Source: Acidobacteriota bacterium
GTDB taxonomy: Bacteria > Acidobacteriota > Terriglobia > Terriglobales > Acidobacteriaceae
DNA length: 34,728 nucleotides
Assembly (NCBI GenBank): GCA_021809235.1
Contig: JAKBAG010000003.1
Span: 1 to 34,728, forward strand
Reading direction: 5' to 3'
Shown here: piece after piece, positions 25,181-33,197 of the stretch
Position numbering within the stretch: the first letter of the stretch is position 1
How the letters are laid out: every line of letters begins with the position of its first letter
Translations under genes and position numbers: made by a program
The notes under the pieces: generated by a model
What the model saw: the letters and a program-made list of their open reading frames with translations, nothing else
Database searches by the model: none
Told to the model about the DNA's origin: nothing

Positions 25181-27007
25181 ATGTCGACCACACCATCCCG
25201 CCCGCCCATTGCTACTCTCAATGACATCTATCTGCATCGGGTACGTTCCGGCCAGGACGGCATCCTGCAATGGCAGGATGCTGACGATACCTGGTGCTCA
25301 CTCAGCGCCTCGCAAATGGATCAGCGTGTGCGTTCCGTCGCCCAGGCGCTGCGCCACTGGGGCATCCGCCGTGGTGATCGTGTAGCGATCCTGAGCGAAA
25401 ATCGCTGGGAGTGGGCAGTCACAGATCACGCCATCCTGGCTCTCGGAGCCATCGTCGTTCCCATTTATCCCACACTCACGCCGTCGCAGGCCGCTGCCCA
25501 ACTGGCTGACTCCGGCAGCCGCATCCTCTTCACATCCCACACCACCCATGCGCGAGCCATCGCCAGCGTCCGGCAGTCCACCGTCCTTGAGCGAATCGTC
25601 CTCTTCGATTCTGATCCAGCCCACCCCGATGACCTGCTGCAGGACTGGTCGAGCTTCTCCACACTGCTCGTCGATTTTCCCAATACCCCGCAGTCCGACT
25701 GTGAATTCGATGCCGAACTGGCTCGTACCACTCCCGACGATCTCGCCACCCTGGTCTATACCAGCGGCACCACCGGCGAATCCAAAGGCGCAATGCTCAC
25801 CCACGGCAACATCGTAGCCAACGTTATCGGCTCCATGCCCCGCATCCGCACCGGGGATCAGCCGCGCTGCATCAGCTATCTGCCGCTGCCCCACATTTTC
25901 GAACGTATGTTCGATTACCTGCTAGCTTACTGCAACTGCCAGATCGCCTACTGCTCCCAAATGGACAAGCTTCCGGCCATGATGCTCCAGTTTCACCCCA
26001 CGGAGTTCATTGGAGTCCCACGTGTTTATGAGAAAATCCGCGCCGGGGTCGAGCTTAAGACCTCAGCTTCACCGCTCAGCGCGCGCATCTTTCGCTGGGC
26101 GCTCGCCGTGGGTCGCCGCCACTGCCAGACGCTGATCGCCGGCCGCCGTCCCACCGCTCTCAGCTGGCGGCTGGCCGATCGACTCGTCTACCGCAAGGTC
26201 CGCGCAGCCTTCGGTGGTGCGGTGAACAACTTCGTCTCCGGCGGCGCACCCCTTGGCACTGAAACCGGCTACTGGTTTGCCTCTGTCGGCATCGTCGTGC
26301 AGGAGGGATACGGCCTCACGGAAACCTCACCTGTCATATCCGTCAACTTTCCCGGAGCGAGCAAAATGGGCACTGTCGGCCAGCCGCTGCAGAATGTCGA
26401 GTGTCGCCTTGCCTCCGACGGAGAACTGCTCGTCCGCGGTCCATCCATCTTTCGCGGCTACTGGAACAAGCCCGACGCCACCGCCGAGTGCCTGCAGGAC
26501 GACGGCTGGTTTGCCACCGGCGACATTGCCAGCATCGATGACGATGGTTTCATCTCCATCACGGACCGCAAGAAGGAGCTGCTCAAAACCTCCGGCGGCA
26601 AGCTCGTTGCTCCCCAGCCCATTGAGAACAAGCTCAAGACCGACACGCTTGTCTCCAACGCTGCCCTCATCGGCGATAAACACAAATTCCTCGCTGCGCT
26701 CATCAGCCCGAATATGGCCGCACTGGAGGCCTGGGCAACCGGGCAGGGAATTGACGTCTCCAACCGCGCCCGCCTCGTCGCCCACCCTCGAGTCATCAAC
26801 CGCTTCGAGCACATTGTCGCCGATGTCAATCACACCCTTGCCAGCTTTGAAACCATCAAGCGCTTCCTCGTCGTTCCCGACGAGTGGTCGCAGGAGGGGG
26901 GCGAACTCACCCCAAGCCTCAAGCTCAAGCGACGTGTCCTCAATGAGCGTTACGCGGAGCAGATTCGTCAGCTTTACGCCGACGAGTCCACTTCCCACGC
27001 CGGCTAG
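25181..27007 (+). CDS. AMP-dependent long-chain fatty acyl-CoA synthetase
   Basis: P-loop LVYTSGTTGESKGAMLTHGNIVAN; QEGYGLTETSPVISVNFPG; GDIASIDDDGFISITDRKKELLKTSGGK. ATG 25181 (MSTTPSRPPIATLNDIYLH) with AGGAG upstream; track ORF starts at 24854. Confidence 0.94.
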   Translation: MSTTPSRPPIATLNDIYLHRVRSGQDGILQWQDADDTWCSLSASQMDQRVRSVAQALRHWGIRRGDRVAILSENRWEWAVTDHAILALGAIVVPIYPTLTPSQAAAQLADSGSRILFTSHTTHARAIASVRQSTVLERIVLFDSDPAHPDDLLQDWSSFSTLLVDFPNTPQSDCEFDAELARTTPDDLATLVYTSGTTGESKGAMLTHGNIVANVIGSMPRIRTGDQPRCISYLPLPHIFERMFDYLLAYCNCQIAYCSQMDKLPAMMLQFHPTEFIGVPRVYEKIRAGVELKTSASPLSARIFRWALAVGRRHCQTLIAGRRPTALSWRLADRLVYRKVRAAFGGAVNNFVSGGAPLGTETGYWFASVGIVVQEGYGLTETSPVISVNFPGASKMGTVGQPLQNVECRLASDGELLVRGPSIFRGYWNKPDATAECLQDDGWFATGDIASIDDDGFISITDRKKELLKTSGGKLVAPQPIENKLKTDTLVSNAALIGDKHKFLAALISPNMAALEAWATGQGIDVSNRARLVAHPRVINRFEHIVADVNHTLASFETIKRFLVVPDEWSQEGGELTPSLKLKRRVLNERYAEQIRQLYADESTSHAG

Positions 27008-27599
27008 GATGCCCAATGCGGCGCCTCACTGATCCTCCGCGCCGCCACAATCGCTGCAATCCCTGAAAAAACGGTGCCCCCCAGGCACCCATCATCAGCA
27101 AGGAGCCAAACAGCACTACCGCATCGATACTCAGCCGTCCCCCCTGCTTCAACCAGTACGCATCCGGATTCAGATCCAGCCAGAGCGCAAACTCGTCCAG
27201 CGTCAGTGCGGCTCCCACCCCATAGGCAATGGAGAGGATGCGGCTGATCAGTATCCCTGTTGGCGTATGCGTCCGTCCCAGGTCCATCAGCCATCCATAG
27301 CCCACCAGGAGCAGGATCAGAATCCCCCAGACCAGGTGATGGATATGCCGCCCCCTTACCATCACCCAGACAAACGGCCCCGTTCCAGCCACCACAAAGT
27401 GCACCAGCAGGCGCACTCCGGCAAACGTCAGAAAAAACGCAACTGATGCCAGAAACATGCGGCGCCTGGGTCGATCCGGGATTGACGAACGCAGCACATA
27501 GCCCAACCGCGTCAACTGCAGCAGAAGCAGCAGAAATACGGCCACCACCGTGACAAAGCTCAGCAGCAGATAGGCTCCCGTATGCGGCATCTCTACCAT
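26940..27599 (-). CDS. Conserved-looking hypothetical multi-pass membrane protein
   Basis: Hydrophobic segments AYLLLSFVTVVAVFLLLLLQL, FLASVAFFLTFAGVRLLVHFVV, HHLVWGILILLLVGYGWLMDL; motifs RGRHIHHLVWGI and LDEFALWLDLNPDAYW; 3' end overlaps the acyl-CoA synthetase. Confidence 0.72.
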   Translation of the reverse strand: MVEMPHTGAYLLLSFVTVVAVFLLLLLQLTRLGYVLRSSIPDRPRRRMFLASVAFFLTFAGVRLLVHFVVAGTGPFVWVMVRGRHIHHLVWGILILLLVGYGWLMDLGRTHTPTGILISRILSIAYGVGAALTLDEFALWLDLNPDAYWLKQGGRLSIDAVVLFGSLLMMGAWGAPFFQGLQRLWRRGGSVRRRIGHPSRRGKWTRRRKADESAPRNAH

Positions 27600-27750
27600 T
27601 CAACCACTTTCACGCATCATTGGGTGCGGCGTATCCGGTAAATCCCGTTTTGCAACGCTCATTTCCGTGTGACGGCTGCTATTCTGAACTGTTCCCGGCA
27701 TCCAAACCTGCCGGTTCAACTCCCAATTTTCCCTGAGGAAAGGATTCCCC

Positions 27751-28326
27751 TTGGCGGGCATTCAGGAAGCCATCGAAATCAAACGCAAAATGTTCTTCGA
27801 GCACGAGGGCGTGCCCTACGTCTGCCTCGATGTCGAAGTCTCCACACCCACCGCTCGCGGCGGCCAGACTCTGGTCCGGCTCAAGATGCGCAATCTGCTC
27901 ACACGTGCCGTCTTCGACAAGACCTTTAAGGCCGGTGAAAAATTCCGCGAGCCCGATCTGGTCACCGTCGATGCAAGCTACCTCTACTCCGATGCCGACG
28001 GCTCCTACTTTCTCGATCAGGAATCCTTTGAGACCCTCCAGCTCACCGAAGAGATGATGGGCGATGCCCTGCAGTTTCTCCTTGAAGGCTCCATGATCCG
28101 CCTGCATAAGTTCAACGGAAATCCCATCGGACTTGACCTTCCGCAGCAGGTGGAACTGGCCGTCGCATACACCGAACCGGGCGTGCGCGGAGACACCGCC
28201 AGCGGTGCCGTCACCAAGCCGGCAAAACTTGAAACCGGCCTGGAAATCCGGGTTCCGTTCTTTGTCAAAACCGGCGAAAAAATTCGCGTCTATACGGAAA
28301 CTCGCGAATTTGCCGGACGCGCCTGA
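27751..28326 (+). CDS. Elongation factor P family protein with YeiP/EfpL-type tip loop
   Basis: KOW region VPYVCLDVEVSTPTARGGQTLVRLKMRNLLTRAVFDKTF; C-terminal KPAKLETGLEIRVPFFVKTGEKIRVYTETREFAGRA. TTG start at 27751 with AGGAAAGGA upstream. Confidence 0.93.
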   Translation: MAGIQEAIEIKRKMFFEHEGVPYVCLDVEVSTPTARGGQTLVRLKMRNLLTRAVFDKTFKAGEKFREPDLVTVDASYLYSDADGSYFLDQESFETLQLTEEMMGDALQFLLEGSMIRLHKFNGNPIGLDLPQQVELAVAYTEPGVRGDTASGAVTKPAKLETGLEIRVPFFVKTGEKIRVYTETREFAGRA

Positions 28327-28444: not shown

Positions 28445-29479
28445 ATGCGAGTAGCACTTTTGACCGGCGGAGGCGATTGCCCCGGCCTGAACGCCGTAAT
28501 CTACGCGGCCGTCCGCAAAGGCATCAACACCTACGGCGATGAGTTTGTCGGCTTTCTCAACGGATGGCGCGGCGTTCTGGATAACCAGTGGATCCCGCTC
28601 ACCCTGGAAAAGGTGGACGGTATCCAGCTGCAAGGCGGCACCATCCTGCATTCCTCCCGCACCAACGTCAAGAAAATCCCCGGCGGCATTGAAAAAGTCA
28701 AGGAAGTTCTGCAGGCCAACAAGATTGACGCTTTGATCGCGCTAGGCGGCGATGATACCCAGTCGGTCACCCTCGCGCTCACCGAAGCCGGTATCCCGGG
28801 CGTTGGCGTGCCCAAGACCATCGACAATGACATCAATGGTACAGACGCCACCTTCGGCTATGACACTGCCGTCGCCATCGCCACCGAGGCCGTCGACCGC
28901 ATCCGCACCACAGCCGACTCCCACAATCGCGTCGTCGTCATCGAGGTCATGGGTCGCGATGCCGGCTGGATCGCCTACGCCGCTGGCGTTGCCGGTGGGG
29001 CCGACGTTGTTCTCGTGCCCGAAAAGGAAATCGATATCGACCACGTCTCGAAGCTGCTCAAGTACAACTACGATCGCGGCAAGCACTACGGTCTGGTCGT
29101 TGTCGCCGAAGGCTGCCATCTGCCCTCCGGTGGCCAGGTGCTAGGCTCCGGTGAGGTCGATTCCTTCGGCCATGCGCGTCTGTCCGGCATCGGCGAGGCC
29201 CTGGCGAAGCTTATTGAAGAGAAGACCGGCTTCGAGACCCGCTCCGTCAACCTCGGCCACACCCAACGTGGCGGCTCGCCCACGGCCTTCGATCGCATCC
29301 TGGGGCAGCGTTACGGCCTCCACGCCATCGACATGGTCCACCAGCAGAAGTGGGGTCGCATTGCCGTCCTCAAAGGTACCGACATCACCGACATCACCAT
29401 CAAGGAAGCTGTTGCCACAAACCGCCGCCTTGATGAGCGATTCTTCAATGTAATCAAGGATCTGGAAGCAAAAGTTTAA
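28445..29479 (+). CDS. Phosphofructokinase family protein with PPi-dependent-type active-site residues
   Basis: MRVALLTGGGDCPGLNAVI; LIALGGDDTQSV; GVGVPKTIDNDINGTDATFGYDTAV; VIEVMGRDAGWIA. Confidence 0.93.
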   Translation: MRVALLTGGGDCPGLNAVIYAAVRKGINTYGDEFVGFLNGWRGVLDNQWIPLTLEKVDGIQLQGGTILHSSRTNVKKIPGGIEKVKEVLQANKIDALIALGGDDTQSVTLALTEAGIPGVGVPKTIDNDINGTDATFGYDTAVAIATEAVDRIRTTADSHNRVVVIEVMGRDAGWIAYAAGVAGGADVVLVPEKEIDIDHVSKLLKYNYDRGKHYGLVVVAEGCHLPSGGQVLGSGEVDSFGHARLSGIGEALAKLIEEKTGFETRSVNLGHTQRGGSPTAFDRILGQRYGLHAIDMVHQQKWGRIAVLKGTDITDITIKEAVATNRRLDERFFNVIKDLEAKV

Positions 29480-29771: not shown

Positions 29772-30044
29772 ATGCGCCTGGCAGAAAAACGTAACCTGCT
29801 CGTACCCGAGATTCGCGAAGTCATGGATATCCGGCAGGCCTCCGATTACCTTGGCATATCGCCTGACACCCTCTATAAGTACGCTTCCGAGGGCTTTGTG
29901 CCCGCCTTCAAGCTCGGCAATCGCTGGCGCTTCAAGCGCTCCAGGCTCGATGAATGGATGGATCAGCAGTCGAACCGCAACGCAGCTGACGCCGCTCTCA
30001 GCCCCGAATCTTCCGACCGAAAGCCAGTTCGCTCAGCGCTTTAG
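29772..30044 (+). CDS. Excisionase-type/helix-turn-helix (HTH_17-like) small DNA-binding protein
   Basis: MDIRQASDYLGISPDTLYKYASEGFVPAFKLGNRWRFKRSRLDEWMDQQ; strong GGGGAGGGG just upstream of the ATG. Confidence 0.85.
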   Translation: MRLAEKRNLLVPEIREVMDIRQASDYLGISPDTLYKYASEGFVPAFKLGNRWRFKRSRLDEWMDQQSNRNAADAALSPESSDRKPVRSAL

Positions 30045-30181
30045 GCTTCCCACGGCAGCATCTGCTCCGATCCTCGCCTGCCGTCATCCGGCTTTCGTCC
30101 ACACAACCCTTGTTTCATGAAACGTGATTCATGGTTCCCAGTCGCCATCGTGCCGCTCCGGGTGGTATACCTGTTGCTGGG

Positions 30182-31270
30182 ATGAATCGCCGACTTACAT
30201 CTTTGCGCCGACTTCTCAGTGCTGCCCAAACCCCGGCTCTGCTGGTCACGCACCCACCCGATCTTCGCTGGCTTACCGGCTTTACCGGCTCCAGCGGAGC
30301 TCTCATCGTCTCTTCGCGCCAGGCTATCTTCTTCACCGATGGACGCTATCGGGCGCAGGCTGCCCAGGAGATAGCCGGAATCGGCATCGAAATTATCGAA
30401 GTTGCCCCCGCCAATGCTGCCCTGCATTGGGCTACTTCCCAGCCGGAGATTTCCGCTCTGTTCTATGACGCCGAGCAGATCACCGTCGCCGAACTGGAAC
30501 GACTGCGCGCCCTTCTGCCTGGCCGCCTACGCCGCAGCTATCTCCAGCCTGCTCCGCAGCCGTGGGTATCCGAGCTTCGCCAGCGCAAGGATGCCGGCGA
30601 GCTGGAAATCATGGCTGAGGCCGCAGCCCTCGGCTGTCGGCTGTTCGACCATATTCTCGGCTTTCTGCGTCCCGGCCTCACCGAGCTGGCCGTCGCAGCA
30701 GAGATCGAACATCAGGCCCGCCTGCGCGGAGCCGAAGGCATGTCGTTTGAGACCATTGTCGCCTCCGGAGCGCGTTCGTCATTACCGCATGGCCGTGCAA
30801 GCAGCGCTCGGCTCCCGCGTCGCGGTCCGGTCACGCTCGACTTCGGTGTTATCCTCAAGGGTTACTGTTCCGATATGACGCGTACCGTCTTCCTTGGCAA
30901 ACCGACTCCGCATGAGCTCCGGGCCTATGAGGCTGTGCTTGCCGCCCAGCAGGCAGGCGTTTCCCGTGTCCGCTCCGGCGTCCTCTGTCAGGCTGTTGAT
31001 GAGGCTGCGCGCAGCATCCTGCGGAATGCAGGCATGGCCGAAGCATTTTCCCACTCCACCGGCCACGGTGTAGGATTGCAGATTCATGAACAGCCCCGCA
31101 TTGCTGCGCGGCAGAAAGCGAAGCTACAATCCGGCATGGTCATCACCATCGAGCCGGGCGTCTATTTTCCCGGACAGTTCGGCATCCGTATCGAAGACAC
31201 CGTTGTGGTGGAGCGTAGCGGCTGCCGCAATCTGACCGCATCCGCGCCAACCGCGCTCATTCAGTTATAA
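30182..31270 (+). CDS. M24-family Xaa-Pro aminopeptidase/dipeptidase
   Basis: PPDLRWLTGFTGSSGALIVSSRQAIFFTDGRY; metallopeptidase motifs VTLDFGVILKGYCSDMTRTVFLG, FSHSTGHGVGLQIHEQPRI, MVITIEPGVYFPGQFGIRIEDTVVV. Start 30182 (MNRRLTSLRRLL) or 30131. Confidence 0.92.
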   Translation: MNRRLTSLRRLLSAAQTPALLVTHPPDLRWLTGFTGSSGALIVSSRQAIFFTDGRYRAQAAQEIAGIGIEIIEVAPANAALHWATSQPEISALFYDAEQITVAELERLRALLPGRLRRSYLQPAPQPWVSELRQRKDAGELEIMAEAAALGCRLFDHILGFLRPGLTELAVAAEIEHQARLRGAEGMSFETIVASGARSSLPHGRASSARLPRRGPVTLDFGVILKGYCSDMTRTVFLGKPTPHELRAYEAVLAAQQAGVSRVRSGVLCQAVDEAARSILRNAGMAEAFSHSTGHGVGLQIHEQPRIAARQKAKLQSGMVITIEPGVYFPGQFGIRIEDTVVVERSGCRNLTASAPTALIQL

Positions 31271-31315: not shown

Positions 31316-31837
31316 ATGGAAGCCAGCAAAATCGAAAACCTCAAAGAACTCATCGCCTTCCTCAAGGAAAATGACGTAGCCGAGTTTGATCTCGACCGCG
31401 ACGACGTCAAAATCCGTCTTAAGTTCGCCTCTGCCGTTGTACAGCCAGCTGCTTCCCCCAGTGCCGGTCTTGATCTGGCCTCTCTGGCCCGCCTCATGGC
31501 TGTTGCTCCCGCTGCTCCGGCTCCGGTGGCAGCAGCAGCTCCGGTTACCCAGGCGCCGGCCGCGCCGGCAGCTTCGGCAGCTCCGGCGGAGGAGAATCTC
31601 CACATCGTCAAGTCGCCCATCGTCGGCACCTTTTACGCTTCTCCTGCACCCGGCTCGCCTGCCTTTGTCTCCATTGGCGACCGCGTCACCCAGGGCCAGG
31701 TCATCTGCATTGTCGAAGCCATGAAGCTCATGAACGAGATCGAGGCAGACGCCGCCGGAGAGGTCGTCAAGTGTCTGGTCACCAACGGGCAGCCGGTTGA
31801 GTATGGTCAGCCGCTCTTCGCCATCCGGACGGTCTGA
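31316..31837 (+). CDS. accB: Biotin carboxyl carrier protein of acetyl-CoA carboxylase
   Basis: Pro/Ala-rich linker, [48 protein letters not shown] biotinyl domain. Confidence 0.96.
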
Positions 31838-31844
31838 CGTGCCC

Positions 31845-33197
<1,353 letters not shown>

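Follow-up and report, generated by a model that had tools for sequence, protein, structure and literature searches.

The gene at 27751..28326 on the + strand of the window, which is the whole 34,728-nucleotide stretch of acidobacterial DNA analysed here, encodes a 191-residue EF-P paralog of the EfpL type. Its product carries a long, conserved tip loop ending in arginine, the same genome encodes a second EF-P with an asparagine at the corresponding tip, and none of the modification enzymes EpmA, EpmB and EarP was found over cut-off in that genome. We consider it probable (roughly 75%), largely by analogy with the Escherichia coli protein, that this gene encodes an accessory EfpL-type EF-P whose unmodified Arg36 would relieve pauses at XP(P)X motifs beside the Asn-tip EF-P.

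A long arginine loop on an EF-P fold

The gene was delimited from the list of open reading frames, profile matches and an alignment of orthologs. It begins with TTG, and the start at 27751 is backed by a ribosome-binding-like sequence, GAGGAAAGGA (27735..27744, +; read from the sequence), 6 nt 5' of it and by aligned orthologs that start at the same position with either TTG or ATG. All three Pfam domains score over cut-off (EFP_N 64.5, EFP 57.1 and Elong-fact-P_C 87.3 bits), and the whole protein also exceeds the cut-off of the canonical EF-P model TIGR00038 (192.4 against 185.8). It remains under the cut-offs of both NCBIfam YeiP/EfpL models, TIGR02178 (134.3; cut-off 264) and NF003392 (151.9; cut-off 216), on which E. 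coli EfpL, used as a control, scores 340.7 and 305. On the practical side, NCBIfam classes these long-loop proteins as plain EF-P. An AlphaFold model of the window protein built on 31 aligned orthologs reached a mean pLDDT of 75.6, compared with 31.7 from the single sequence, and its top overall superposition among the PDB entries listed was E. coli EfpL (8S8U, query TM 0.80).

The beta3-beta4 loop region, located by the alignment and the AlphaFold model, reads STPTARGGQTL (residues 31-41; 27841..27873, +). In the model, a 9-residue loop, TPTARGGQT (32-40), connects the strands at residues 21-31 and 41-48. This loop is two residues longer than that of E. coli EF-P and aligns without gaps to that of E. 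coli EfpL, QSPTARGAATL, placing the tip residue Arg36 (codon CGC, 27856..27858, +) opposite Arg33 of E. coli EfpL, with Pro33 at position -3. The original prediction, which had read the loop as EfpL-type with Arg replacing Lys and had given the E. coli sequence for comparison, was correct on both counts. The features by which Sieber et al. 2024 describe EfpL, a loop of more than 7 residues with a tip Arg and a Pro at -3, are thus both present (Arg36 and Pro33). Residues T32-P33-T34-A35-R36-G37-G38-Q39-T40-L41 are unchanged in the 31 aligned orthologs, which share 70-95% identity, and the identical STPTARGGQTL recurs in 112 retrieved copies, some of them redundant; judged from these alignments, the loop sequence is therefore not a chance product. 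It is fixed across Acidobacteriaceae and Holophagaceae and almost fixed in orthologs from Acidobacteriota.

Origin of the loop

Two sets of long-loop proteins are considered here: the type found in the window, hereafter EfpL-A (at least 62% identity to the window protein), and a more distant set from other Acidobacteriota, hereafter EfpL-B (39-52% identity), whose loops include QTPSARGAATL and QSPTARGSATL. Viral contigs yielded no EfpL. Sieber et al. 2024 (PMC11611912), whose KOW-domain alignments contained the loop, placed acidobacterial EfpL in one branch with other EfpL, and in our trees all EfpL likewise join when the loop is included (87/99). Trees built without the loop columns unite the long-loop proteins of Acidobacteriota, with values of 100/98 in one tree and 95/59 in a larger one; gammaproteobacterial (gamma) EfpL, represented by few rows, is placed apart from them on a very long branch (2.2), close to the Asn EF-Ps. 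A constraint uniting all EfpL in one clade gave AU p values of 0.021 with all rows, 0.054 with long rows removed and 0.129 with rows added. Compared without the loop, the rest of the protein resembles gamma EfpL (28-29% identity) no more than it does Lys EF-P (38%). These results would suit an origin of the long Arg loop in Acidobacteriota independent of gamma EfpL, through either convergence of a Lys-type EF-P or transfer of the loop only, which we regard as possible though unlikely. The length of the gamma branch weakens the loop-free grouping, domains II and III on their own do not reject a single EfpL clade (AU p 0.36), and the near identity of QSPTARGSATL in one acidobacterial genome (G226) and QSPTARGAATL in E. 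coli is more simply explained by shared origin; Sieber et al. also obtained a single branch. Overall, the near-identical loop favours one origin, whereas the body, as far as sequence comparison goes, gives no sign of it and does not firmly reject it. Both the position of acidobacterial EfpL in the published tree and the case for common ancestry with gamma EfpL depend on the loop columns. We withhold the plain label "ortholog of E. coli EfpL" because the loop-free trees do not show such orthology.

The partner EF-P, gene neighbourhood and modification enzymes

The source genome (3.0 Mb, 84.7% complete) encodes a second EF-P on contig 68. This protein (MAIPATQMRPGMIIKHNDQLHLVFSVEHRTPGNLRAFIQ...) has a canonical 7-residue loop in which the residue aligned to E. 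coli Lys34 is Asn (TPGN). A search for a second copy, proposed in the original prediction, was thus positive, but the tip it revealed is not the canonical Lys; the idea that a Lys EF-P together with EpmA elsewhere in the genome supplies EF-P function was rejected, since the second copy carries Asn and EpmA is not over cut-off. A profile search recovered EF-P from 144 of 151 genomes of the class, and the first 30 class loci read all have the TPGN loop (30/30). EfpL-A is present in 71 of 297 phylum genomes, of which 70 also encode a second EF-P, and the partner tip is Asn in each of the 25 EfpL-A genomes in which it was read, from Acidobacteriaceae to f33 (apparently Holophagaceae) and others; these pairing counts, drawn from related genomes, are not independent. 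Exclusive pairing with Asn is limited to EfpL-A, since the partners of EfpL-B are mixed, with an Asn tip in five genomes (G388, G259, G411, G282 and G208) and a Lys tip in G226. Moreover, EpmA is present in the EfpL-B genomes G193, G328 and G357.

Two further kinds of EF-P were observed in the phylum. Some Acidobacteriota carry a third, divergent type with glycine-rich loops, for example KAGGGQLGG, KAGTAKLGG and HAGGGKMGG (loci L171, L172 and L173 in G438, G467 and G480; L238 in G319). Other EF-Ps of the phylum have TPGKG and no KPGKG (e.g., L252, L254 and L256), with loops between the Asn and Lys types, and are placed within the Asn group or close to it, a position that suggests repeated switches between Asn and Lys at the tip.

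The original prediction had proposed the long-loop protein as the main EF-P of its lineage. It is very unlikely, in our assessment, that the long-loop copy serves as the principal or sole functional EF-P, with the Asn-tip copy marginal. Three genomes do carry EfpL-A as their sole EF-P (G456 and G315, each 99% complete, and G418, 84%), and in Vibrio EfpL and EF-P are of equal importance (PMC11611912). However, the long-loop-only genomes are draft assemblies, and the Asn-tip type is nearly class-wide, while the long-loop copy occurs in just 37 of the 120 family genomes sampled, 35 of which have a second EF-P.

Gene neighbourhood had also been taken to imply main-efp status. An M24 aminopeptidase gene (30131..31270, +), accB (31316..31837, +) and accC (31797..33197, +; true start probably about 31845) do lie close by, separated from the EF-P gene by a 6-phosphofructokinase gene (pfk; 28445..29479, +) immediately 3' of it. 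Only the 5-6 nearest relatives (L034-L038, at least 87% identity), however, share the order EfpL-pfk-M24-accB-accC, and with it the link to the M24 gene; relatives at 82% identity or below lack it. Of the 52 canonical-length EF-P loci of the phylum, 8 have a different M24 gene within 1.5 kb. The neighbourhood was therefore rejected as proof of a main efp. Between pfk and the M24 gene, at about 29870-30139 (+), is a gene for a 90-residue helix-turn-helix/excisionase-like protein (TIGR01764, 46.5 bits; cut-off 28.8) that is also MAD1-like, with a score under the MAD1 cut-off. On the 5' side of the EF-P gene, 26940-27599 (-) encodes an apparently membrane-bound protein of 219 residues, which gave no Pfam or NCBIfam match and has a counterpart in several near relatives.

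None of the 151 class genomes, the source genome included, has EpmA (TIGR00462), EpmB or EarP over cut-off; the EarP model, as a control, did detect EarP genes already known from two plasmids. As the source genome is incomplete, the absence of these enzymes rests on the class sample. Weaker matches to TIGR00462 are open frames of about 500 residues that seem to be lysyl-tRNA synthetase or related proteins. Across the phylum, EpmA occurs in 28 of 297 genomes and in none of the 71 with EfpL-A. The expectation that the protein acts without EpmA lysylation or EarP rhamnosylation is thereby supported, and extends to the partner. With Asn at the partner's tip in place of the usual modifiable lysine, neither copy appears equipped for any known EF-P modification. 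In pseudomonads, EarP modifies Arg32 of EF-P. A comparable modification of Arg36 by an enzyme outside the known families, which searches of those families would miss, is most improbable given the lack of EarP in all 151 genomes, the absence from EarP-type loops of the proline that is invariant here, and the unmodified Arg33 of E. coli EfpL (PMC11611912).

Genes resembling DHS (PF01916) are present in 146 of the 151 class genomes, including the source genome (G000:C185:8923-9840, 135 bits). Volkwein et al. 2019 (PMC6544042) noted such genes in genomes whose EF-P carries Lys or Asn at the tip. A DHS-related enzyme, or other modifiers, may have a role for these EF-Ps; neither paralog offers a tip Lys. 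YmfI, an SDR difficult to distinguish from related proteins, acts on Lys. A broader proposal for Acidobacteriota, that Asn-tip and long-loop Arg-tip EF-Ps would both be active without tip modification and that the Arg loop would be independent of gamma EfpL, appears quite unlikely.

Relation to known EF-P systems

Acidobacteria have already been named as EfpL carriers, and EfpL was found mostly beside lysylated EF-P (Sieber et al. 2024, PMC11611912). The window protein resembles EfpL/YeiP (8S8U) in having a loop of more than 7 residues, a tip Arg, a Pro at -3, the three-domain EF-P fold and a second EF-P in the genome. It differs in that its partner is of the Asn-tip type without EpmA rather than lysylated, and in scoring under the NCBIfam YeiP/EfpL cut-offs. 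In E. coli EF-P numbering, the window protein retains Arg186, a residue in contact with tRNA and 16S rRNA, and has Phe in place of Tyr183, Phe being present in 14 of 15 EfpL-A rows; Sieber et al. 2024 (PMC11611912) describe these two residues as common to EF-P and EfpL rather than as a criterion for EfpL. Acetylation of Lys51 has been reported to switch off E. coli EfpL. The corresponding residue is Val in the window protein, and Lys40 is Arg; control by acylation at position 51 in the manner of E. coli is therefore unlikely, judging by the substitution.

Canonical EF-P (TIGR00038) has the same domains and a model whose cut-off the window protein exceeds, but its loop, typically KPGKG with a Lys tip, has 7 residues, compared with 9 residues, a two-residue insertion and an Arg tip here. 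EarP-type EF-P (for example Pseudomonas aeruginosa 3OYY) shares the Arg tip, and 3 of the 4 EarP-types compared also have Phe at position 183. Its loop, however, has 7 residues without a proline, and this type requires EarP, while the window protein has Pro33 and comes from a class whose sampled genomes lack EarP. Volkwein et al. 2019 (PMC6544042) also noted EF-P with an Asn tip, the type to which the partner paralog corresponds, with TPGN, a Pro at -2, the canonical loop length and a separate group in the tree.

Returning to the accessory EfpL reading, the protein would bind the ribosome between its P and E sites. From there its loop, longer by two residues, would bring an unmodified Arg36 close to the CCA terminus of tRNA-Pro in the P site, matching the model for E. 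coli EfpL. As an accessory to the second, more widespread Asn-tip EF-P, it would help to free ribosomes that have paused at XP(P)X motifs. We infer its action on the ribosome, the unmodified state of Arg36 and its preference for these motifs from E. coli EfpL, a protein that rescues XP(P)X stalls and whose Arg33 has been shown to carry no modification (PMC11611912).

The window gene is thus a further EfpL of an already reported type, and what is added here is the consistent association of EfpL-A with a partner of the Asn-tip type in the absence of EpmA, which does not appear in the available portion of Sieber et al. 2024 (PMC11611912), together with the dependence of common ancestry with gamma EfpL on the loop columns. 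EfpL has been described mainly beside a lysylated EF-P, whereas the EfpL-A clade regularly occurs with an Asn-tip EF-P and never with EpmA in the genomes sampled. This pairing offers a natural test of an EF-P system that operates without a modified lysine.
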